A stretch of 36,815 nucleotides of DNA from an uncultured Bacilli bacterium. GTDB lineage: Bacteria > Bacillota_I > Bacilli_A > RFN20 > CAG-449. Both the position numbers and the translations under genes were made by a program. The notes beneath the pieces were generated by a model. That model was not told the origin of the DNA. It was given only the letters and a program-made list of their open reading frames with translations, and did no database searches. Numbering within the stretch: position 1 is the first letter of the stretch; each line of letters opens with the position of its first letter. The stretch is taken from contig CANQEO010000009.1 in NCBI GenBank assembly GCA_947595215.1, forward strand, positions 1-36,815, in the 5' to 3' direction. This document shows positions 1-11,100 of this stretch, piece by piece.

Positions 1-453
1 GTCAATTATAATTCTTGGATATATGGCTTGATGCGATTCTATGTCATATGCTTTGACCAGCCCTAATCCATAAACAACATTATCACTAATATGTAATTGA
101 TCTACTACAACTGCTCCTCGCATAAACAAAGAACCTACCCGAAAAAGAGACATTAAAATAGAATTGACTACATTTAGCACATCAGTAACAGCAACAGAAG
201 AGTTGTTTTCATCTATTTCTTCACAAATTAAAATGTTGTCAGAAAAAATTTTGATTTTGATTCTTTCATCATTTTTCCACATAGAGGCAATGGAACTATT
301 TTGTAACCAGGTCCAAATAAATGCCCAGTCTGAGCCATCAATTATTTTTTGTTTGATACCCAAAATATCTATATATGCAATGGCACATTTGCGTTGATAT
401 GGCAATCCATTTTCATCTCGCATTTGGGCATGTAGAATTTCTTGATTTTCCAT
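1..453 (-). CDS. Partial protein with nucleotide-cyclase-like motifs (3' end outside window)
   Basis: An uninterrupted minus-strand reading frame runs from ATG at 451-453 to the window edge, giving 151 visible residues without a stop. Motifs in order are YIDILG (residues 27-32), FSDNI (70-74), RGAV (112-115), GLGLVKAYDIE (129-139) and YPRIIID (145-151). The two Asp-containing motifs (D29 and D72) are spaced like the metal-binding Asp pair of class III nucleotidyl cyclases. The whole pattern resembles a widespread group of uncharacterised bacterial proteins with a cyclase-like fold. It starts 8 bp after the stop of the KilA-N gene and so is probably the last visible gene of the XRE operon. AAAGGAT lies about 13 bases upstream as a weak ribosome site. 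Its base composition is more AT-rich than the rest of the element. Whether it makes a cyclic nucleotide cannot be told from sequence. Confidence 0.7.
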   Translation of the reverse strand, partial: MENQEILHAQMRDENGLPYQRKCAIAYIDILGIKQKIIDGSDWAFIWTWLQNSSIASMWKNDERIKIKIFSDNILICEEIDENNSSVAVTDVLNVVNSILMSLFRVGSLFMRGAVVVDQLHISDNVVYGLGLVKAYDIESHQAIYPRIIID

Positions 454-461
454 ACTTAAAA

Positions 462-1286
462 TTATCCTTTTTTCCCATCCATAAGTAAGCGAGAATTGCT
501 TTGCTGCAACACACGCAGTTGAGCGCGCGCCATATCATTGAGACGTTGCAAACGCTCTGCTTGTGGAACGCCTTGCTCAATCAAAATGGCGTTATAACTC
601 TCCATATTGGCGATCACCAAAAGTTGTTCCACCGTGGCGTAGTCGCGGATATTGCCTTTTAATGACGGGTTCTCCTTGCGCCACTGAGCGGCGGTTTTTC
701 CGAACAGGGCAACATTGAGTAGATCAGCTTCGTCGGCATAGACATATTTGAGTTGTTCCTCGGTAAGGGTAGGAACGATATTCTCTTTGATAGCGTCCGT
801 GTGTATGCGATAGTTGACTTTGGCAAGTTCACGCTTTGCCGACCATTCGAGAACTTGCTGCTCTTGCGCTTTGAGCCGCTGAAACTCCGTGACTAAATAC
901 AACTTGAATTCAGGACTTAACCAACTTGCAAACTCAAAAGCAATATCCCTATGCGCGAACGTTCCGCCATTGTTTCCCGACTTGGAAATGATACCAATCG
1001 CATTGGTTGCGTCTATCCATTTTTGCGGCGAAAGGTAGAAGCTGTGTCTGCCTGCCGCATTCTCAAAGGCCTCGAATTCGTGCCCTTTGAAATCGGGGTT
1101 ATGCAACGTCTCCCACAGCCCAAGATAGGATATGACGTCCTTGCTACGCATCCATGTGGCAATCGGAACTTTCGGTTCGGTCGGATTTGCGTAACGCGCC
1201 AAATCGGTGAGAGATATATAGTCCTCTTTGTCTATTTTCTTATATCTGACATCTAACCCTTTGACGGTAATTTCTTTATTTGACAT
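462..1286 (-). CDS. KilA-N domain protein
   Basis: The product has 274 residues. The N-terminal half resembles the KilA-N DNA-binding module: ISLTDLARY near residue 24, the ATWMRSKDVISYLGLWE segment, HSFYLSPQKWIDATNA, and GGTFAHRDIAFEFASWLSPEFKLYLVTEFQRL. KilA-N proteins are typical of phages and mobile islands and are thought to bind nucleic acid; most lack a defined role. The C-terminal half (from about residue 150) is mostly helical and unrecognised, with LLNVALFGKTAAQWRKENP and a predicted coiled tail. AAGGAG lies about 12 bases before the ATG. It lies 55 bp downstream of the helicase gene and 8 bp before the cyclase-like gene, so an operon is likely. Identification of the domain is firm; the function is not known. 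Confidence 0.88.
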   Translation of the reverse strand: MSNKEITVKGLDVRYKKIDKEDYISLTDLARYANPTEPKVPIATWMRSKDVISYLGLWETLHNPDFKGHEFEAFENAAGRHSFYLSPQKWIDATNAIGIISKSGNNGGTFAHRDIAFEFASWLSPEFKLYLVTEFQRLKAQEQQVLEWSAKRELAKVNYRIHTDAIKENIVPTLTEEQLKYVYADEADLLNVALFGKTAAQWRKENPSLKGNIRDYATVEQLLVIANMESYNAILIEQGVPQAERLQRLNDMARAQLRVLQQSNSRLLMDGKKG

Positions 1287-1341
1287 AACACCTTATCTCC
1301 TTGATGTTAGTACTTCAATCCTCAAAATTGCAGAACTTAAT

Positions 1342-3471
1342 TTATATTTCTTTTATACCTATACTCTTCAAATATTGATAGGTGCCGTCGTAATATTCGG
1401 GCAAGCGAGTGCTATCCTCCCAAAAACCGCCGGCTGTTTTATTTGCATTCCCGTAAGGAACACAGATCACCATCCCGGCTCTCGCGCGTGTCAGCAAAAC
1501 TCGATATGCGTTTAACATATATTTCATGAGTTCTTGCTTATTTTCAGTAGTCGCCGTCTGCTCCACCCATTTTGTTTGGCCGTTGAACCTATAAAAATGC
1601 CATTCGTTATTTATGCACCGCATATCTGCGTCCCAAAGCACACAAGTATAATCAAGCTCAAGCCCCTGAACTTGTATTTCCGTCGCGGCGTCTTCAAGAT
1701 AGTTTGATGACCGTACGTCTGTCTTATCCTCCAAAAACCAGTGCACGGCGTTCTCGTCGCCGGACGGCAGCAAGTGGATAGACAACGGTTTGAATCTTGC
1801 AGATTCTTTCGTAACCAAAACGCCCGTTCGCTCCGAACCGCGCGCTTTTTGGTGAAGCCATGCTTTTGCTTTTTCCATATCTCTCGTCAAAACAATCGGA
1901 TATTTATCTTTAATTTCATTGTAAAGCGCTACCGCACCGATGTCAAACGCCAAAACTGCATGTACAAAAGCGGAGAGTTTTTCGGCCCGGTAAGAACGAA
2001 GAGAGACGCCCAAGTGCAGAGCCTCTGCATATGTCACATTGGGATTATCTTTTAATAACTCGTCTACCTTGCCTTCCGCGTATTCGGGTTCCGTCAATTT
2101 AGGCGATATATAAACATCCCAATTCGTAAATTTTTCATTGAGGGCCTTAATCCACTCGGAGATTCCCGCCTCTCCGGTGTTAATCTCTTGTCCGCCGCCG
2201 ACAAGGCAGACGATTGTGGCCCAATCTTCTCTTTGATCGAGCGACCAGATCAAAAACGCGGCTTCCGATACCGGAAAGTTCGGAACCTTGAGCTTATTCC
2301 CGTAAGTGCCGCCGCGCTTCAAATAATCGGCAAGCCTTTTATGGGTCCACGAGCGCTGTGCTTCGTCAAAAATAGCCACGTGTTCAACCTCGCCGAACCC
2401 GGCCATTTCTATCTTGACGGCTTTTTCGGGATCAATTTCGAGAACTTCATTTTCTACTGGATTTTTAATTTTTGCGAGCATATTATCGCGATAGCGGTGG
2501 ATCATCTGAATAGATTTTGCCACCTCGCGGCGAGAATCGCTCAATTTCTTTTTTTGCCCCCTCGACAGGCATTTTTTATAATTATCTTGTGAAAGCGCTT
2601 CCGTCAGCACCGCCACCAAAGGACCGTTGCCGGAGAGGTAAACGGCACCTTCGTCCTCGACCGGTTCGTCACCGCCTTGGTAAGTTTGTTTGATAGCAAC
2701 GTCAAGTCCCACAAGCGTTTTGCCCGCTCCGGGCACGCCGGTAACAAAGCATATGCTCTTTTTTCGATTGATTTTGCTTTTATGAATAACCTCAAGGATA
2801 TATGCGATCGTCCTATCCGTTGAAACGTTGTCGGCCTCATGCCGAGTTATATTCTCCACGCTGTGGTTTTCATACAGTGATCTTGCTGCCTCGATTATAG
2901 TCGGGGTAGGGGCGTAAGGACTTATCACCCAATTGGGGTCAATATTCGGTTCACCGGGGAAACACGTAAGCACTTTTTCTATTAAATCGGCGATCCCGGT
3001 TTTCCCACAGATCAAAGGATTTACGATCCGATCGTCGTATATAGACATGTGGACTTGTGTAGAAGAGTGGCGGTGTTCTGTGGCAATTAGAACGGGCACG
3101 ATAATATGATCGTGGCTGAACTTATGAAAATTCTTCAAATCAAGCGCATAATCAAGCACTTGGTCAATGTCGCTCACTAAAATTTTTGTTTCGCCGACTT
3201 TGAATTCAAGACAAAATATGATACCTTTGAACAACAAAACAACGTCGATCCGCTTGCCGAGCCGAGGAATATCATATTCAAAAATAATTTGTCCATGCAC
3301 GCCCGAAAAAGAGTGCAAGACATCCTTCATGATGGATATCTCGGCACTCCACGCCTCACGCGTCGTGGTGAGCGCTTCTCCGTGGTAATTCTCACACAGT
3401 TCGCCCAAAATCGTTCTGCCGTCCATCCCGATAAAATCGCTAAAATTGTTGTTATATAAGCATCTGTTCAT
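1342..3471 (-). CDS. RecB-like nuclease fused to DUF2075 (Schlafen-type) helicase
   Basis: The product has 709 residues. The N-terminal 120 residues show a PD-(D/E)XK nuclease pattern: E44, D76 in KRIDVV, E89-x-K91 in CLEFKVG, then Q104-x3-Y108, the QxxxY motif of RecB-family nucleases. The ATPase part has Walker A GVPGAGKT (245-252) and Walker B DEAQ (369-372), followed by LVGGGQEINTGEAG, VQGLELDYTCVLW and LLTRARAGMVICVP near the C terminus, as in DUF2075/SF1-like ATPases. A protein that both cuts and translocates on nucleic acid is expected. The start is the first ATG in frame; its ribosome site is poor (GGAT about 18 bases away), so M16 is an alternative. It is the second gene of the XRE operon. 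Proteins of this type are common in defence islands, but the exact role here is inference. Confidence 0.85.
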   Translation of the reverse strand: MNRCLYNNNFSDFIGMDGRTILGELCENYHGEALTTTREAWSAEISIMKDVLHSFSGVHGQIIFEYDIPRLGKRIDVVLLFKGIIFCLEFKVGETKILVSDIDQVLDYALDLKNFHKFSHDHIIVPVLIATEHRHSSTQVHMSIYDDRIVNPLICGKTGIADLIEKVLTCFPGEPNIDPNWVISPYAPTPTIIEAARSLYENHSVENITRHEADNVSTDRTIAYILEVIHKSKINRKKSICFVTGVPGAGKTLVGLDVAIKQTYQGGDEPVEDEGAVYLSGNGPLVAVLTEALSQDNYKKCLSRGQKKKLSDSRREVAKSIQMIHRYRDNMLAKIKNPVENEVLEIDPEKAVKIEMAGFGEVEHVAIFDEAQRSWTHKRLADYLKRGGTYGNKLKVPNFPVSEAAFLIWSLDQREDWATIVCLVGGGQEINTGEAGISEWIKALNEKFTNWDVYISPKLTEPEYAEGKVDELLKDNPNVTYAEALHLGVSLRSYRAEKLSAFVHAVLAFDIGAVALYNEIKDKYPIVLTRDMEKAKAWLHQKARGSERTGVLVTKESARFKPLSIHLLPSGDENAVHWFLEDKTDVRSSNYLEDAATEIQVQGLELDYTCVLWDADMRCINNEWHFYRFNGQTKWVEQTATTENKQELMKYMLNAYRVLLTRARAGMVICVPYGNANKTAGGFWEDSTRLPEYYDGTYQYLKSIGIKEI

Positions 3472-3573
3472 AATATATATTTGCGTTGCTATCCTTTGCG
3501 CAATTGGCGCGTCACCGTATTGTCAGCTTTTGGGTATATCGACCCGAATTTGTTCTTTTGTTTTCGGCATAGA

Positions 3574-3765
3574 TCAGTCCTCAAACGTCAGTCCTTGTTC
3601 GGCACAAAAGTCCCGAAACAATCTTTTTGCTTTCAAAGTCGGTTCGCACTTGCCGGTTTCCCATCTGCAAACCGTAACCGAGTTCACTCCGAGTTTCGCA
3701 GCAAATTCTTCCTGCGTAAGCAGTAACCTCTCACGAGCGCTCTTGATTTTTTCAGAATAAGTCAT
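3574..3765 (-). CDS. XRE-family HTH regulator
   Basis: This 63-residue protein is almost entirely one Cro/CI-type helix-turn-helix: LLLTQEEFAAKLGVNSVTVCRWETGK at about residues 14-39, with the usual Q-x3-A-x3-G-V-x4-V-x3-E spacing. GCGGAG lies about 10 bases before the ATG. It is first behind the strong minus-strand promoter at 3797-3825 and 102 bp ahead of the nuclease-helicase gene. A likely job is repression of its own operon, and perhaps of the divergent plus-strand operon across the 3766-4068 gap. It has no effector domain, so it probably responds by loss or competition rather than by ligand binding. The family is certain; the targets are inferred. Confidence 0.92.
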   Translation of the reverse strand: MTYSEKIKSARERLLLTQEEFAAKLGVNSVTVCRWETGKCEPTLKAKRLFRDFCAEQGLTFED

Positions 3766-3796
3766 CTTATACTCCGCTTAACATCTTATTAGCAAT

Positions 3797-3825
3797 ATTT
3801 TAGCATATTTCGGCGCGTACGTCAA
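3797..3825 (-). promoter_or_regulatory. Promoter of the XRE operon
   Basis: Read on the minus strand, TTGACG (3825-3820), a 17-bp spacer and TAAAAT (3802-3797) with a TGC extension form a near-consensus sigma-A promoter. Transcription would begin near 3790, giving a leader of about 25 bases before the XRE ATG. Confidence 0.8.
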
Positions 3826-4029
3826 GGGCTTTGATATACTTGCCGCCTATTCTTACCATAAAATTTCCGATCAAACACAAAAGCGGGTTTCCCGCTTGTT
3901 GAGGGGCGAAGTTGTGGCACTTGTGACCAACTTCCTTATCCTGCTTAGGCATCCGTTTTTCTGCCCATTTTGTGGCACTTTTGGTATGGGGTATGCCCAC
4001 TAAAATTTCTTTGGAAAATTTTATAATGG

Positions 4030-4062
4030 TGACAGGTATTGTCATGTTTGGTGTGGTATAAT
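4030..4062 (+). promoter_or_regulatory. Extended -10 promoter with inverted repeat, sigma-like gene
   Basis: TGGTATAAT (TATAAT at 4057-4062) is an extended -10 element without a good -35. The inverted repeat TGACA-N5-TGTCA (4030-4044) occupies the place of the -35 and could be an operator. The predicted start of transcription (about 4069) coincides with the ATG at 4069. Confidence 0.55.
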
Positions 4063-4068
4063 TGTCGT

Positions 4069-5094
4069 ATGGATAAGTTAGCGTATCATTTGAACAAGAA
4101 GAAACAGCCTGCGCCTACGGACGGCAAAGTTCTCTACTATTACCCCGCAGACGAGGAGATTGCAAACGCGCACGTCGGCAACAAGTATTACATCACGGTT
4201 GAGGTCAGCGAACAGGAATGGGAAACGCTCATCGAGATGGATCGGTTGGAGTATAACAACACCCATACATACCAACGCCATAATACCATCCTCCCGGACA
4301 GGGACACCGAAGTCTTGCTCTCACCCAAAGAACAGGAACAGTTCATAGATAAGAATTTCAGTTTTGCCGAGGCAGAAAGGAATCCGCCGAAAGCGTTGCG
4401 GAATACAGATGACCTGACAGACAGAGAGTTTGAGGTTTACACTCTCTGCGTGATTGAGGACAAGACGCAGGCGGAAGCGGCGGAAGAACTCGGTCTTACG
4501 CAGGGCTATATTTCCATGACGCTCAAAAAGGCAAAAGAGAAAGTCACGAAAGCCGAATTGAAGAAAGCAAGCCCCGAAGCGTATGTCCGCAAATGTTGGG
4601 ATATTTTCCTCGATACAAGCACGATGCCTAATTATTTAGACGTCGAACTCGAATTTGTCATTCGTTGGCTTTTATTGGATTTGCTACCGTTCGCCCATTG
4701 GTATTACAGCGTGGGAGAGTTCTGCCGCTACCTTATGACCTATTACCTCTTTGACGAGGACAAAATAGACGAAGATATAGCGAAATACAAAGAAGCCGCA
4801 GACGAAGAAGAACGCTTGCACTTTGAGGAGTATTACGGCGAAAGACCGCCCATTGTGCAAGCCGTCTATGTACGCCTTATGACGGAAATGAACCGTCGGC
4901 GGCAATCGGGACTCCACGACTCGGACAAAGCCTATACAAGCATCTACTCCACGGCGGAGAAGATCGCAATCCGCCTGAAAATATCTACTTACGACTTTCT
5001 CACTCAACGCTTTTATCCGTTCTTTGCAAAGTCAAGAAACAAGCGTATCGAGCAATTCTATAAAGCCTATTCGGGCAAAAAGTTGCTAAAATAA
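4069..5094 (+). CDS. Sigma-70 region 4-like regulator of the mobile element
   Basis: The product has 341 residues. Residues about 115-158, LTDREFEVYTLCVIEDKTQ followed by AEELGLTQGYISMTLKKAKEKV, match the helix-turn-helix of sigma-70 region 4. The long C-terminal part has acidic, aromatic-rich helices and no recognised domain. No region 2 (-10 binding) is visible, so it is more likely a DNA-binding regulator than a complete sigma factor. Similar genes are common in mobilisable elements of gut Firmicutes. I chose ATG 4069 because the -10 box at 4057-4062 would place the transcript start there; the longer frame from 4039 would start upstream of the promoter. No Shine-Dalgarno sequence precedes the ATG. 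A terminator-like hairpin follows at 5169-5195. Confidence 0.75.
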   Translation: MDKLAYHLNKKKQPAPTDGKVLYYYPADEEIANAHVGNKYYITVEVSEQEWETLIEMDRLEYNNTHTYQRHNTILPDRDTEVLLSPKEQEQFIDKNFSFAEAERNPPKALRNTDDLTDREFEVYTLCVIEDKTQAEAAEELGLTQGYISMTLKKAKEKVTKAELKKASPEAYVRKCWDIFLDTSTMPNYLDVELEFVIRWLLLDLLPFAHWYYSVGEFCRYLMTYYLFDEDKIDEDIAKYKEAADEEERLHFEEYYGERPPIVQAVYVRLMTEMNRRRQSGLHDSDKAYTSIYSTAEKIAIRLKISTYDFLTQRFYPFFAKSRNKRIEQFYKAYSGKKLLK

Positions 5095-5168
5095 AAAATT
5101 TTTCGTAACGACTAATAATTTCGGCGTTCCCGTGGCTTATAATTGAGGGAGTATCGAAACGTGATAAG

Positions 5169-5195
5169 CAGTCCTTGAACAAAGGGCTGTTTTTT
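5169..5195 (+). terminator. Intrinsic terminator, possible attenuator before the MobV-like gene
   Basis: CAGTCCTT (5169-5176) pairs with AAGGGCTG (5182-5189) and is followed by a run of T. The 3' arm (AGGGC) can instead pair with GCCCT at 5197-5202, just before the AGGAGG of the next gene, so the two folds exclude each other. Confidence 0.6.
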
Positions 5196-5221
5196 CTGCC
5201 CTCGAAAGGAGGTGAAACAAG

Positions 5222-6001
5222 ATTTACAAGTATTACGAGAACAAAATGGGAATGCCAGAACAGAAGTACCCGCGAGATAAGCACGCGACAATTTCCGTCA
5301 TATCGCATAAGGCGCAAGACTTCCAAAGTATAGACGAATACCTCAAAGACTGCGAACAGCGGTATAAGGTAGAATACTTCAAAAAGGCGTCCTCGACCGA
5401 ACAGGCGTGGGCAGATGTAATGAAGTCTACGAACGCGAGATTCAACAACCGAGGCAAGAACGTTGTTTTGGAGTGTCTGCAATTCGGTGGCAATCGTGAG
5501 TTTTGGGACGGTTTCAATTCCGAACAGGATATACGAGCCTATTTCAAAGTTTGCTACCAATACGCCATAGACAAAGTGGGCTTCTTGCGCACACATGAGA
5601 ACATCATCTGCGCAGTAATCGTCACCGAGCCGAACAGGCGAAACCTCTTTGTCTATTATCTTCCAATTACGGAAGTATGGCAAGAAAAGATTATGAGCAA
5701 TGACAAAAGCGAGGTAGGCAACAGACTTCAACTGCGCGACGAGTACGATATGCCTATGTATAGGCATCGGGAAGAGATAGACAATCCACTGCTTTCCCAT
5801 AGCGCATTCTGGAAAGCGCGCGGCGGGTTGGTGTCATACTCTGCTTTGCAAGAGGACTTCTTCAAGGAAGTATCCGAGAAATACGGAGCGAAGCGCGGCG
5901 AGAGCTTCTCCCTCATCAAGAATACGGTGGAAAGCCATCGTAAGCGTTACCATCGGACAGACGGCGACCTTTACGACGAACTTTATTACGACGGCTTTTA
6001 A
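5222..6001 (+). CDS. MobV/Pre-like mobilisation protein lacking the HUH motif
   Basis: The frame from ATG 5246 gives 251 residues. The segment KNVVLECLQFGG through EPNRRNLFVYYLPITE (about 71-143), and SHSAFWKARGG then SALQEDFFKEVSEKYGAKRGES, follow the plan of plasmid Mob/Pre relaxases. In active MobV proteins the strand ending in VP is preceded by PHxH; here that place reads R-N-L-F (N133, L134, F135 from ATG 5246), so the metal-binding histidines are gone. It may be a non-catalytic DNA-binding descendant. The GGAGG at 5208-5212 is 9 bases from ATT at 5222 but 33 bases from ATG 5246, so I give the ATT start, which adds eight residues (IYKYYENK). No canonical start codon lies between. The family call is by pattern; the loss of histidines is seen directly. 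Confidence 0.7.
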   Translation: MYKYYENKMGMPEQKYPRDKHATISVISHKAQDFQSIDEYLKDCEQRYKVEYFKKASSTEQAWADVMKSTNARFNNRGKNVVLECLQFGGNREFWDGFNSEQDIRAYFKVCYQYAIDKVGFLRTHENIICAVIVTEPNRRNLFVYYLPITEVWQEKIMSNDKSEVGNRLQLRDEYDMPMYRHREEIDNPLLSHSAFWKARGGLVSYSALQEDFFKEVSEKYGAKRGESFSLIKNTVESHRKRYHRTDGDLYDELYYDGF

Positions 6002-6019
6002 GAATCTCGCTTGAATCTC

Positions 6020-6060
6020 TTGACAAACCTCAAAGAAAAAGATATAATCGTATTCATACG
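6020..6060 (+). promoter_or_regulatory. Perfect consensus promoter with operator-like palindrome
   Basis: TTGACA (6020-6025), exactly 17 bp, then TATAAT (6043-6048). CGTAT-TC-ATACG (6049-6060), a perfect inverted repeat, covers the expected transcription start and is well placed for repression, perhaps by the product of the next gene. Confidence 0.85.
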
Positions 6061-6085
6061 ACACGCATATTTTACGGAGGTTATT

Positions 6086-6367
6086 ATGGAAAAGAAACCG
6101 AGAGCGATCAAAGACAAGCGTTATGAGGAGAAGCACAAAGCGGAGAGAAAGGCAAAAAGCCTTTCGTGGGGAACGAGCGTACCGAGGGAAACAGCTGAGA
6201 ACATCAACTTTTTTCTCAAAAAGTATGGATTTACCAAAATACAACTAATAGAAGCCGGCTATAAGGCTTTGCTCGACGAAGCGGCGGAACACAACACTTC
6301 TTTGGCAAAGATTATGGACGGTTATGACGATTTCTTCGGATTTGAGTCGGACAAGTCCGAGAAATAA
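6086..6367 (+). CDS. Small basic regulator, possibly ribbon-helix-helix
   Basis: The product has 93 residues with a charged N terminus (MEKKPRAIKDKRYEEKHKAE). It continues with WGTSVPRETAENINFFLKKYGFTKIQLIEAGYKALLDEA, which looks like a short strand followed by two helices as in ribbon-helix-helix DNA-binding proteins. The ATG at 6086 is preceded by ACGGAGG at 5 bases; the longer frame from 6011 would begin upstream of the promoter. The consensus promoter with a palindrome at its start site suggests that the gene is strongly expressed and self-repressed. It lies between the MobV-like gene and the recombinase, as small copy or transfer regulators often do. The fold assignment is tentative. Confidence 0.6.
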   Translation: MEKKPRAIKDKRYEEKHKAERKAKSLSWGTSVPRETAENINFFLKKYGFTKIQLIEAGYKALLDEAAEHNTSLAKIMDGYDDFFGFESDKSEK

Positions 6368-6456
6368 TTTTACACCGACAAAACGGATAGAGTCCGGTTG
6401 AACAAACTGTTTCTACCCACAATTTACAAAATCTAAAAAGGAGGATTTTTGTGAAT

Positions 6457-6520
6457 ATGGAGAGAGAACATTGTATCCATTCAGCCAGAGAACATCGTAA
6501 CTGCACAAATAGAAAAATAA
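6457..6520 (+). pseudogene. Short, possibly disrupted ORF ahead of the recombinase operon
   Basis: AAGGAGG (6438-6444) precedes ATG 6457. In the ATG frame the peptide is poor in sense, but two bases further on the frame reads RENIVSIQPENIVTAQIEK and stops with TAA at 6518-6520. Four extra bases in the GAGAGA tract after the ATG would explain the shift. The frame after the TAA is the same as that of the next ORF, so both may once have been a single gene of about 85 residues. This is inference from reading frames only. Confidence 0.3.
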
Positions 6521-6526
6521 GGAGAA

Positions 6527-6718
6527 TTGAAACAAAACTGTGCAAAGGTAGATTTACAAACCAAACAAACAACTTATGGGGAACTTAATCTCCCCGATGA
6601 GAAATTAAAAGCAAGTGCGACGATACTTGCAAACATACTGCTCGACTATATGAGAAGCGGCGGCGATATGAGCAATATTACGCCAAGCAGAGTGTTCGGG
6701 CAAAGGAGAAAACAATGA
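6527..6718 (+). CDS. Small unrecognised protein coupled to the recombinase
   Basis: This 63-residue frame begins at TTG 6527 and contains KVDLQTKQTTYGELNLPDEKL, then a helical part ASATILANILLDYMRSGGD. I do not recognise a family. Its TGA overlaps the ATG of the recombinase (ATGA at 6715-6718), so translation is probably coupled. AAGGAG lies only two bases before the TTG, which is too close, so the start is doubtful. The frame upstream is open back to a TAA at 6518-6520 and continues a plausible peptide before that stop, so this may be the 3' part of a split gene. A role in control of the recombinase is a guess from position. Confidence 0.5.
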   Translation: MKQNCAKVDLQTKQTTYGELNLPDEKLKASATILANILLDYMRSGGDMSNITPSRVFGQRRKQ

Positions 6719-8274
6719 AAAAGAGAACAGTTATTTATGCAAGGTTTTCCTCGCACACACAGACGGAGCAATCCATAGAGGGACAACTCCGCGAATGTTA
6801 TGATTACGCCAAACGGCAGGACTTAACTGTCGTTGGAGAATATATAGACAGAGAATTAACGGGAACTACGGACAAACGTCCGCAATTCCTGAAAATGATC
6901 GAGGACAGCAAGAAAAAGACATTTGATTACGTCCTCGTCTACCAGTTAGACCGCTTTGCTCGTAACCGCTACGACAGCGCAAACTACAAGGCTAAACTGA
7001 AAAAGAACGGCGTGAGAGTCCTCTCGGCAAAGGAAAATATAACCGAGGATGCGAGCGGCATACTCATCGAGGGTGTCCTTGAAAGCATGGCGGAATATTA
7101 CTCCGCCGAACTTTCGCAAAAGGTCAAGCGCGGCATTAAAGAAAGCCTCACAAAAGGTTATTTCATCGGTGGAAATTGTTTATTCGGCTATGACATTGTG
7201 GATAAACATTGGGCAGTCAATCCCACCGAAGCCGAAATCGTGCGAGATATGTTTGCCCGCTATAAGAGCGGAGAGAAAGCCAAAAGCATTGTGGACAGGC
7301 TAAACGCGCAAGGTATCCGCAACAAAAGTGGAGCGGCATTTACGGTCAATTCGTTTGCCAAAATTATCCGCAACAGCAAGTATGCGGGAATTGTCATCAA
7401 CAATGGCGAAACCTATGAAAACGTCGTCCCCGCTATTGTGGACAAGGACACATACGAAACTTGCAACCGTATAATGGACAATCAACGGCACAAGCAAAAG
7501 ACCGTACAGGAACACAGCGAATACGTTTTGTCCGGAAAACTCTTCTGCGGATACTGCGGCACGCTCATGACCGCCGAGGACGGAACGAGTCATACGGGCA
7601 AGATCTATCACTATTACAAGTGTTTTAACCGCAAGAAGAACAAGGATCAATGCAACAAGAGCAACATTACAAAAGAGAAGCTCGAAAACCTCGTCTTTGA
7701 AGCAACAATCGAATACGTCTTAAAACCTCAGGCGATAGACAAAATTGCCTCGGCGGTCGTGGAAAAATTCAACAGTAGCATTACAAAGTCCGACTCGCTC
7801 GCTCTGCTCGAAAAGGAGCAACAGCAAGTGCAAAAGTCCATAAACGGCTTCTTGAACGCTATCGCCGAGGGAGTTGTTACGAAGTCTACCAAAGAAAGAC
7901 TGCTTGCTTTGGAACAGCAAAATGATATTCTCGAAGAAAAGATTGCATTGGAAAAAGCAAGACAAGTTCAACCGTTACAATACGAAACGGTAAAGGCGTT
8001 CCTGACTTACTTTGCGAGGAAGAAATACCAAAACGACGAGGAAAAAAACGAATTTTTCAACTCGTTCATCTATCGTGTTGTCCTCTTTGATGACTGCGTT
8101 TATATCTTTTACAACACTTCGCCCGACGCGCCAACAAAAGTTAAACTCGACAAGGACGAACTTGACGAGTTAAAAAGCCCCGAACATAGAAAAAGCACCA
8201 GACTTCAACCGCTTGGGTTCAAATTGGGTGCTAATGGCGGAGGAAGAGGGATTCGAACCCTCGCACCCGATTAA
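6715..8274 (+). CDS. Large serine recombinase (integrase of the element)
   Basis: The product has 519 residues. It contains the resolvase catalytic domain with YARFS (R10, nucleophile S12) and LDRFARNRYD (79-88), the recombinase domain (about 155-260), a zinc ribbon (C278, C281, C303, C313), a coiled coil (about 365-425) and a short tail. It cuts and joins attP and attB through a 5' phosphoserine link. AAAGGAG stands before the ATG, which overlaps the stop of the preceding ORF. The last 12 codons (8236-8271, GGGRGIRTLAPD) and the stop are the antisense of the 3' part of tRNA-Ser. This places the recombinase at the element-chromosome junction and implies that its C terminus differs, or is supplied by attP, in the excised form. 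Classification is certain; use of the tRNA as target is inferred. Confidence 0.95.
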   Translation: MKKRTVIYARFSSHTQTEQSIEGQLRECYDYAKRQDLTVVGEYIDRELTGTTDKRPQFLKMIEDSKKKTFDYVLVYQLDRFARNRYDSANYKAKLKKNGVRVLSAKENITEDASGILIEGVLESMAEYYSAELSQKVKRGIKESLTKGYFIGGNCLFGYDIVDKHWAVNPTEAEIVRDMFARYKSGEKAKSIVDRLNAQGIRNKSGAAFTVNSFAKIIRNSKYAGIVINNGETYENVVPAIVDKDTYETCNRIMDNQRHKQKTVQEHSEYVLSGKLFCGYCGTLMTAEDGTSHTGKIYHYYKCFNRKKNKDQCNKSNITKEKLENLVFEATIEYVLKPQAIDKIASAVVEKFNSSITKSDSLALLEKEQQQVQKSINGFLNAIAEGVVTKSTKERLLALEQQNDILEEKIALEKARQVQPLQYETVKAFLTYFARKKYQNDEEKNEFFNSFIYRVVLFDDCVYIFYNTSPDAPTKVKLDKDELDELKSPEHRKSTRLQPLGFKLGANGGGRGIRTLAPD

Positions 8275-8325
8275 AAGTCTACTAGCTTTCCAAGCCAGCC
8301 CCTTCAGCCACTTGGGTATTCCTCC
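8235..8325 (-). tRNA. tRNA-Ser (GGA anticodon)
   Basis: On the minus strand the acceptor stem GGAGGAA/TTCCTCC with discriminator G and encoded CCA, the GGTTCGAATCC T-arm, a long variable arm typical of serine tRNA, and the anticodon loop TTGGAAA all fit. The 3' end points into the mobile element and overlaps the end of the recombinase gene, so it is the likely attachment site. Confidence 0.95.
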
Positions 8326-9457: not shown

Positions 9458-10012
9458 ATGAGCATTTTAACTGTGTCTAATGTTCTAATCGTTATAGCTA
9501 TTGTCATCTTGTTTTTTGAATTATGTTCATCAGATTCTAAAATAAAACGTCAAAGCATTAGTATTTTGTTGGCATCAAGTCTTACTACCATATGGTATTT
9601 CTTAGATAAATACATTCCATTTTGTCAAAAGTTCCGTAACAAGTTTGTACGTGAAATAAAATCGTCAGGTAAAGTTATCTTCGATGAATATCAATTAGAT
9701 GATCAGACTATAAAACTTATGCTAAGCGTGCTTTTCTTTTTACTAGCGTTGGTTTTAGCCTATATTGTAATCCGCTTGATTACACTTTGCTTATTTAAGA
9801 AGAAATATCTTATGAAACGTGTTAAGTATGGAGTGGATTTTAAATCATTCTTTATTCATTTGCCACTTATCATTTTTAATAGCGCAGTATTTATGGCTTT
9901 TGCTTTTGTTTTAACATATGTATTAAAAAATCTATCATTCTTAGACATAGGCATTTTAAAAGATGCTTTTATTTGGATTGAGGAAATTCTAAAAGGAGGC
10001 TTAGGATTATGA
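9458..10012 (+). CDS. Unrecognised membrane protein
   Basis: The product has 184 residues. Hydrophobic segments are seen at about 4-23, 30-48, 85-108 and 130-155, with a charged loop between (KFRNKFVREIKSSGKVIFDEYQ). The general look is like CvpA-type proteins, but I do not recognise a family. ATG 9458 is preceded by AAGGAGAC; the longer frame from 9422 lacks a site. Its stop overlaps the next ATG (ATGA at 10009), the first of three such overlaps that tie it to phosphoglucomutase. Confidence 0.8.
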   Translation: MSILTVSNVLIVIAIVILFFELCSSDSKIKRQSISILLASSLTTIWYFLDKYIPFCQKFRNKFVREIKSSGKVIFDEYQLDDQTIKLMLSVLFFLLALVLAYIVIRLITLCLFKKKYLMKRVKYGVDFKSFFIHLPLIIFNSAVFMAFAFVLTYVLKNLSFLDIGILKDAFIWIEEILKGGLGL

Positions 10013-11100
10013 AAAAAATCGAAAAAGCTGTTCTTTTAGCAGATATCTTTGGAGCGGATACTGAGAAGTTTTTACCATCATATCTTGATACATTGAAAAA
10101 TTCTAAAGAATATGCAGAACTAAAATATAATTTAAATAAAAATCGCAATTATTATTCTTCGTCAATCTTTAAGATTAAAGATTTATACGAAGGCATATCT
10201 TTTGAAAATGTTGAAAGTTATGAAGATGCGGTTATTTTATCAGGAAAAATATTTTATTTATTACATATTTCTAACGATTTAAATCATATTAATCCATTGC
10301 TTTATCTAGAAAAGAAAAAACGTTCTGTCACTTTAGGTGATATTAAAATGGAATTTGATGGAAAAGATCGTTCACTTAGTGATATCGCTCAAGATAGTAA
10401 CTATACTAGTAGGTTTAAAGTCGAACGTGTTAAAAAAGTATTCTCAAATTGGGTACTTGATGCAGAAACATTAATAATTAACCCAATGAGGGTTATTATG
10501 TTTAAAAGAAGAAATTTACCTAAGCGTAAGATATATAATCGTTCAAAGAAATTCTTACTATTAATGTCGATTCTTCTTTCGCTTGTAGCTCTTGCTAGTT
10601 TCATGTTTAAGAATCCAGTTCACAATTATTTTATGTTACTTCAAGAAGGAGAGGGAAATTTAAAAAATATTCTCTATTGGACAGCAGGAGTATCATATAT
10701 TGTCTTCTTAGTATTTGTGTTTTTATTTGATATGTTCTTTATATTTGACATCTCAAGAAGAAGAAAGTTCTTAAGAAGATATATTTCTGCTCGCCATATG
10801 TTAGTAGTGAATGGTAGAGATATCATTGAAAAATATAATCGTGATAAAGCTCGCCTATATGTTGATTTAATGGATTCGATTACCAATCGCACCGCTTTAG
10901 AGAAAAAAGCCTCAATATATTGCGATCTAGCTAAATATTACCCATGTTTAGTTTATCTAGACAAGATTAACCATCATCGTCGCCGCATTCGTCGTGAAGA
11001 AGAAAAGGGAATCTATTCATTCCTAATGGGTGTAACTATTTTCGCATTACTTATTGTTGGCGTTATTATGGGTCTTATGATAGGAGGTGTCATTAAATGA
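10009..11100 (+). CDS. Unrecognised membrane protein with large cytoplasmic part
   Basis: The product has 363 residues. A soluble N-terminal part (about 1-180) is followed by three hydrophobic segments: about 184-202 (FLLLMSILLSLVALASFMF), about 224-247 and 340-361 (glycine-rich, IVGVIMGLMIGG). A basic region lies between, ending HHRRRIRREEEKG. No family is recognised. It overlaps its neighbours by ATGA at both ends, so it must be made together with them. An envelope role next to phosphoglucomutase is plausible but not shown. Confidence 0.8.
   Translation: MKKIEKAVLLADIFGADTEKFLPSYLDTLKNSKEYAELKYNLNKNRNYYSSSIFKIKDLYEGISFENVESYEDAVILSGKIFYLLHISNDLNHINPLLYLEKKKRSVTLGDIKMEFDGKDRSLSDIAQDSNYTSRFKVERVKKVFSNWVLDAETLIINPMRVIMFKRRNLPKRKIYNRSKKFLLLMSILLSLVALASFMFKNPVHNYFMLLQEGEGNLKNILYWTAGVSYIVFLVFVFLFDMFFIFDISRRRKFLRRYISARHMLVVNGRDIIEKYNRDKARLYVDLMDSITNRTALEKKASIYCDLAKYYPCLVYLDKINHHRRRIRREEEKGIYSFLMGVTIFALLIVGVIMGLMIGGVIK

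Follow-up and report, generated by a model that had tools for sequence, protein, structure and literature searches.

A large serine integrase gene ending inside the tRNA-Ser gene that its element targets, and an inferred exchange of the integrase C-terminal tail

A stretch of 36,815 nucleotides from an uncultured Bacilli bacterium (hereafter the window), which is the whole of contig C9 in a 24-contig assembly with 65% completeness, holds a serine recombinase gene whose stop codon lies inside a tRNA-Ser gene on the opposite strand. This arrangement raises two questions: whether the recombinase belongs to an element integrated at the tRNA, and whether the end of the protein differs between the integrated and the excised states. 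The features around the junction are as follows.

6715..8274, + strand: large serine integrase ORF, 519 aa when integrated, with the element supplying the codons to about 507
8235..8325, − strand: host tRNA-Ser(GGA), 91 nt, the attB target, intact after integration
8186..8232, − strand: terminator-like hairpin with T-run, borne by the element and immediately after the tRNA CCA, antisense within integrase codons
8445..9425, + strand: host pseudouridine synthase gene adjoining the tRNA, also beside the empty site in genomes G004 and G006
1..8234: element part inside the window, the remainder being C18:10901-11372 on an overlapping contig

The encoded CCA of the tRNA occupies 8235-8237, and integrase codons 508-519 (12 sense codons) and the stop are the antisense of the tRNA. 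The initial annotation had placed the recombinase C terminus and its stop inside the opposite-strand tRNA-Ser, and its coordinates, the 12 codons and the stop were all borne out, as was the shift in G+C content at the junction, from about 0.45 in the element to about 0.29–0.31 in the host. The Pfam domains of the integrase (PF00239 at 6-148, PF07508 at 170-256, and PF13408 at 272-330) follow the order of large serine integrases, namely resolvase catalytic, recombinase, and zinc ribbon, and S12 and S13, either of which may be the catalytic serine, were invariant across 18 aligned relatives. The best PDB relatives were a putative conjugative-transposon recombinase and the TP901-1 integrase for the catalytic domain, and the A118 integrase for the DNA-binding part. 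An AlphaFold model of the integrase of the related locus L021 has long helices at 360-384 and 390-416, and their length and place suggest that this protein has a coiled-coil insertion between zinc-domain helices. The window ORF is a member of the large serine integrase family and a real new variant of it.

Positions 1-77 of the window are identical to 11296-11372 of contig C18, its last 77 bases, and this exact identity resembles an overlap in the assembly graph. The sequence at C18:10901, TGGCGGCACGTTGGCATCCGAATTTGAAC, recurs at element left ends in other genomes and was located as the left end via a tandem junction at locus L050. From there to the tRNA junction, the element measures 8,629 bp. 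As the left end is on a separate contig, the join would rest only on the 77-bp overlap and on weak synteny; the genes left of the equivalent tRNA in G017 resemble C18 genes at 39% (tblastx), so the join is weakly supported. In G004 and G006, which are of the same genus, an identical 91-nt tRNA-Ser(GGA) and the pseudouridine synthase gene were found with no element, and the site is thus unoccupied there. The host locus of G005 was uninformative for this comparison, as no tRNA was called. Integrase matches at E 1e-60 or better were present in 2 of the 18 genomes of the family (G000 and G005). A second copy of the tRNA 3ʹ end had initially been expected at the left boundary. When a long direct repeat of this kind was sought at the far boundary, it was absent, and the common sequence was the 6-bp core TGGCGG only, which is normal for a serine integrase. 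The proposal of a serine-recombinase element integrated at the tRNA-Ser 3ʹ end was supported by the C18 left end, by the empty sites of G004 and G006, and by 32 of 40 related loci described below.

The element carries the following further genes within the window.

462..1286, − strand: cargo KilA-N protein (PADLOC candidate PDC-S22)
1342..3471, − strand: cargo Schlafen group 3 helicase-domain protein (PADLOC candidate PDC-S41)
3574..3765, − strand: small HTH_3 protein, cargo or regulator
4069..5094, + strand: backbone ORF with a sigma-70 region 4-like HTH, upstream of the integrase in several relatives
5246..6001, + strand: backbone ORF conserved in relatives, family unassigned (no Pfam family above the cut-off)
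6086..6367, + strand: small backbone ORF conserved in relatives
6527..6718, + strand: small backbone ORF conserved in relatives, overlapping the integrase start

The KilA-N and Schlafen-type proteins are candidate defence cargo. The cargo in other elements or arrays included Lamassu LmuB, a DpdF/PsyrT-like helicase, and type I and II methyltransferases, and 2 of the 10 proteins searched had no match. Among the window-element ORFs scanned, no virion family (Pfam) was found and no conjugation family or relaxase was recognised, with the ORF at 5246..6001 left unassigned, and the exact right- and left-end patterns had no match in viral_contigs.

Several other arrangements were observed in passing. 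In the same genome, C18:8280-8860 (L004) is a decayed remnant of an older related element, with a degenerate core and a recombinase 3ʹ end to which pieces of the Schlafen-type gene are fused, and it lies near an IS3-like insertion at about 9690-10890. L150 (1166-5746) holds the same KilA-N and Schlafen-type pair without a recombinase. Two left-end sequences bound it, along with a copy of the region of the host terminator, and it is a candidate non-autonomous cassette in an array. L140 (G027:C35, 2666-8782) encodes a predicted surface protein of 2,038 aa, lipoprotein-like, and lacks evident defence genes.

A contig scan for relatives returned 64 loci and, with the window included, 40 loci had an integrase at least 50% identical. 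An intact tRNA-Ser was joined at the same base in 32 of the 40, with the anticodons TGA (15), GCT (8), GGA (5), and CGA (4), and a tRNA-Met was at the junction in one. Such recurrence shows that the overlap with the tRNA did not arise by chance. The other seven had no tRNA at the junction: L021 and L050 had tandem left ends, L043 had a left-end-like 0.3-kb segment followed by tRNA-Ser, L029 had a fragment of a tRNA-Ser 3ʹ end, L033 had such a fragment with the intact tRNA about 0.1 kb further, L013 had another recombinase, and the match in L049 stopped short of the integrase end, near the contig edge. Among distant relatives, L011 (39%) adjoins a tRNA-Ser, L052 (30%) a tRNA-Leu, and L051 (35%) and L158 a tmRNA.

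Some of these loci have features of their own. In L029 (5327-5349) and L033 (1620-1760), displaced 21–23-nt tRNA-Ser 3ʹ-end fragments lie beside the serine element, such as tyrosine-integrase islands leave, and two integrase types may share the site. In L013 (11520-12249), the core is also met from the opposite side, by a second and different serine recombinase gene whose end resembles a tRNA-Ser 3ʹ end in sense orientation. Segments of about 0.3 kb in L043 (3493-3760) and L049 (8417-8676) have a left-end-like start and a terminal hairpin that precedes tRNA-Ser or the next left end, and may represent a miniature non-autonomous element. The integrases of L045-L048 are 39–45% identical and read through another core (GCTCCACCA-like), away from any tRNA. 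Here too the ORFs change past the core, and an att site inside the integrase gene is possibly common in this clade.

The geometry of the attachment site is described by three short features.

8235..8240: core TGGCGG, common to the left element end (C18:10901), with an inferred central dinucleotide GG at 8239-8240
8252..8258: TTCGAAC, the tRNA T-loop read antisense, putative zinc-domain motif of attB
8217..8225: GTTCAAATT, within the ORF, the matching arm motif in the P' half of attR, on the element side

The L050 tandem junction yields the attP GGTTCAAATTGGGTGCTGATGGCGGCACGTCGGCATCCGAATTTGAAC, the arms of which are nearly symmetric about the middle of TGGCGGCACG, and this symmetry suggests GG as the central dinucleotide. 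In attP, AATTTGAAC lies 16–24 bp from the centre on the left-end side, and the T-loop TTCGAAC in attB is exactly 5 bp nearer the centre than TTTGAAC in attP (GAAC at position 21 in attB and 26 in attP). All 33 tRNA junctions had the T-loop motif at the same offset, in one case as TCGGAC. For the LI integrase, the accessible part of the work of Rutherford and colleagues (PMC3783163) places the zinc-domain motif at bp 16–24 in attP and at bp 11–19 in attB, 5 bp inward. No clear motif was found in the downstream attB half-site. The attR cores that were not TGGCGG were TGGCGC in three loci and TGGT in one. The genome of L015, one of the TGGCGC loci, also has another element junction with TGGCGC (L133), which is consistent with matched dinucleotides, in a single case.

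In intact relatives there is no stop in the integrase frame before the crossover, so the integrated protein terminates at the first stop in tRNA-antisense or host DNA, and the integrated tails were arbitrary, from 3 to 84 codons. The left ends read in the integrase frame gave a consistent peptide, for example GGTPSPEFELFMYKEHFGMNMPL-stop. The left-end pattern had 39 matches compared with 15 for a reversed control pattern; 17 of the 39 were analysed, and the 22 others, nearly all with 2 mismatches, were dropped for failing a stricter expression or lying outside the fetched loci. An extra match with 1 mismatch (G019:C44:5746) also fits by eye. Frame 0 was open in 17 of 17 analysed left ends, with the stop 14–21 codons past the half-site, and none of 2000 shuffles matched this openness. 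As the search pattern fixes the first 28 nt of each left end, the coding test holds only from codon 10 onward, but for one base. Over 24 left-end pairs, which are not independent, there were 17, 20, and 82 differences at codon positions 1, 2, and 3, respectively, and the third-position excess together with the open frame is the mark of protein-level selection on the tail.

This conservation implies that the excised circle would encode the native integrase and that integration would remove its last ~23 codons; no circle has been observed. That the protein end may differ between the two states, as the initial annotation had suggested, is supported at the sequence level only, by the conserved in-frame left-end tail, the L050 tandem junction, and a phage/prophage split described below. 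The L050 junction joins the recombinase frame and the tail in the assembly, in a copy without the N-terminal part. The fit is incomplete in places: the predicted tail of the window element, GGTLASEFEPKIYLSYKRFVAFVKM, matches the consensus only in its first part, the L013 and L043 junctions have tails that depart from it, the right-hand junction of L021 is of another type, and the recombinase frame of L133 is broken upstream.

The phage/prophage split was found in Faecalibacterium phage Lelie and the prophage-type record FP_Toutatis, which have the integrase in common up to GTCTGGTCC. Past this point, Lelie continues into a tail finishing in ...SARLWRTA, and FP_Toutatis continues into the 3ʹ end of a tRNA, with the Lelie continuation located at its other end (53396-53727, 99.4% identity). 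An uninterrupted copy of that tRNA end, with similar downstream sequence, is the tRNA-Pro(GGG) of MT839983, and here too GAAC is shifted by 5 bp, from 26 in attP to 21 in the tRNA. The pair is like the window element in its serine integrase, its tRNA 3ʹ-end target, the tail exon moved to the far prophage end, the hairpin in integrase codons, and the 5-bp motif shift, but differs in that the integrase is 36–37% identical, the target is tRNA-Pro, and the phages are 53–55 kb. The word 'tRNA' does not occur in the text of the paper describing these prophages (PMC5883640). Inverted repeats were also searched in 13 phage or plasmid relatives, with shuffled controls that were at times positive too. 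The result was clear only for the circular genome of Dulem virus 37, which has a 48-bp attP-like inverted repeat (12-bp arms) in the integrase frame, 24 codons before the stop; it was plausible for L158, and attP-like inverted repeats were not convincing in the remaining relatives of the 13.

Of 34 related junctions, 33 have a hairpin and T-run downstream of the tRNA, in antisense within the integrase codons, the exception being L011. Of 12 element left ends that were folded, most have a host-side hairpin just to their left (weakest in L127), as expected if these hairpins were once downstream of the tRNA. Integration thus appears to swap the host tRNA terminator for that of the element, termination itself being inferred.

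Considering all of this, we put at about 0.85 the probability that the locus is an integrative element of 8.6 kb, carrying candidate defence genes and inserted at the tRNA-Ser(GGA) 3ʹ end by its own large serine integrase, with attP in the integrase gene and an inferred swap of the tail. The attB half-site would be the tRNA 3ʹ end, where TGGCGG is the antisense of the CCA, the discriminator, and the first acceptor bases, and the T-loop TTCGAAC, 11–19 bp from the centre, would be read by the zinc-ribbon domain. The putative attP lies within the 3ʹ part of the integrase gene, and in the circle the integrase frame would run through TGGCGGCACGTTGGC into the tail. Recombination would then replace the final ~23 native codons, which in most relatives read GGTSAPEFELFMYKEHFG...-stop, with 3–84 arbitrary tRNA-antisense codons, and would set the integrase-antisense terminator-like hairpin behind the tRNA in place of that of the host. 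Most likely, integration is aided by the circle-only tail, and the integrated enzyme is then quieted or redirected by the loss of this tail combined with antisense transcription from the tRNA over the gene end; there are no activity data for either step, and the function of the tail is inferred only. The whole integration model was drawn from DNA sequence, with no excision, circle, or activity observed.

Other readings of the tail have to be weighed. The tail may have no function, the integrase merely lacking a stop before attP, with the left-end conservation due to attP DNA binding and shared descent. The arbitrary integrated tails (3–84 aa) fit this, as do the first nine tail codons, which overlap the attP half-site, and the L021 model, in which residues 485-526 are disordered and no role for the tail is shown. 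However, codons 10-18 are almost wholly outside the 25-bp half-site and still differ mostly at third positions (17/20/82), and the 17 open frames all reach a stop within a narrow window, so we regard a functionless tail as unlikely, though not to be set aside. We give about the same low weight to the possibility that the integrase is silenced mainly by antisense RNA, with the precursor and trailer of the tRNA pairing to the integrase mRNA at its 3ʹ end, and that the tail swap is secondary. The tRNA is oriented for transcription into the integrase end as far as the hairpin, but the hairpin would restrict the antisense trailer to some 50 nt, and there are no transcript data. Slightly less probable still is that the tail is a degradation tag or a similar stability switch, as in mycobacteriophage integration-dependent immunity, rather than a part of the recombination machinery. 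Mycobacteriophage repressors share the geometry, with attP in a coding gene and a changed C-terminus, in the part of PMC8092301 that was available, and the left-end tails mostly finish in hydrophobic residues; against this, no ssrA-like ending was seen in the tails, and the conservation spans the tail and not its end alone. A chimeric assembly, in which a Clostridia fragment of 45% G+C was falsely joined to a host contig of 31% G+C, might be suspected from the incomplete, fragmented assembly (65%, 24 contigs) and from close relatives in Clostridia bins, but hardly survives the identical precise junction on 31 other contigs, a tRNA that is the host's own (identical to those of G004 and G006), the decayed relative in the same genome (C18:8280-8860), and a 39% relative at tRNA-Ser in the same genus.

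The preferred reading, a functional tail exchanged by integration, can be compared with known systems, for which the sources were available in part. The A118/LI large serine integrases (PMC3783163) are like the window system in their resolvase, recombinase, and zinc-ribbon domains, short core, attP of about 50 bp, and an attB zinc-domain motif lying 5 bp closer to the centre, whereas the window element targets a tRNA 3ʹ end and has attP inside the integrase reading frame. Self-altering integrases are already known. According to the authors of PMC4701971, streptococcal rumA ICEs have their att site within the gene of the serine integrase, whose C terminus differs in the excised form. These ICEs share both traits with the window element, but they are conjugative and target a protein gene, rumA, and no test of tail conservation was found in the accessible text of that paper. 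For Myxococcus phage Mx8, the same text describes an attP inside the integrase gene and a modified enzyme, reported to be less active, whose C-terminal end is replaced upon integration; unlike the window element, Mx8 uses a tyrosine integrase, and 112 residues are replaced by 13. In the archaeal suicidal (SSV-type) integrases, attP is likewise within the gene of the integrase, which is split on integration, and the review PMC8371274 calls such integrases exclusive to archaea in the part that could be consulted. The attP-in-integrase-gene criterion of suicidal integrases is met here, as the frame crosses attP in L050 and runs into the left ends. However, the SSV-type enzymes are described there as tyrosine recombinases with separate N- and C-terminal parts and the catalytic domain in one, whereas the window element has serine recombinase domains and only about 23 codons moved.

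As far as the available portions of these sources go, Islander states that no serine integrase at tRNA genes was known in 2014, a survey of M. abscessus puts the sites of serine integrases in protein genes or at other places, and the integrases at tRNA genes listed in an IME review are all of the tyrosine type. No serine integrase targeting tRNA genes was found in the literature searched, for which sources were partly accessible and most subscription papers were outside the scope. Within this literature, the reading of the T-loop with a 5-bp shift and the protein-level conservation of a circle-only tail appear to be new. We tentatively extend the model, at somewhat less than even odds, to the clade as a whole, which would use the universal T-arm and 3ʹ end of tRNA or tmRNA genes (Ser, Pro, Leu, Met, and tmRNA seen) as attB with a commitment latch, in which a circle-only tail is present, integration rewrites the enzyme activity, and an element-borne terminator keeps the tRNA expressed.

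Surveys describe serine integrases as avoiding tRNA genes. Those that target tRNA-Ser contradict this, and the way in which tRNA targeting works is suggested by the fit of the zinc-domain motif geometry to the T-loop of any tRNA. Such elements would escape island mapping that ties tRNA sites to tyrosine integrases or that needs long tRNA-end repeats. The use of serine integrases in genome engineering is limited by their directionality, and if the tail is a switch, this property would be open to study by simple truncation. Given the defence genes, known and candidate, that these elements bring with them, the tRNA-Ser genes of gut Clostridia and relatives appear to be docking sites for defence cassettes.
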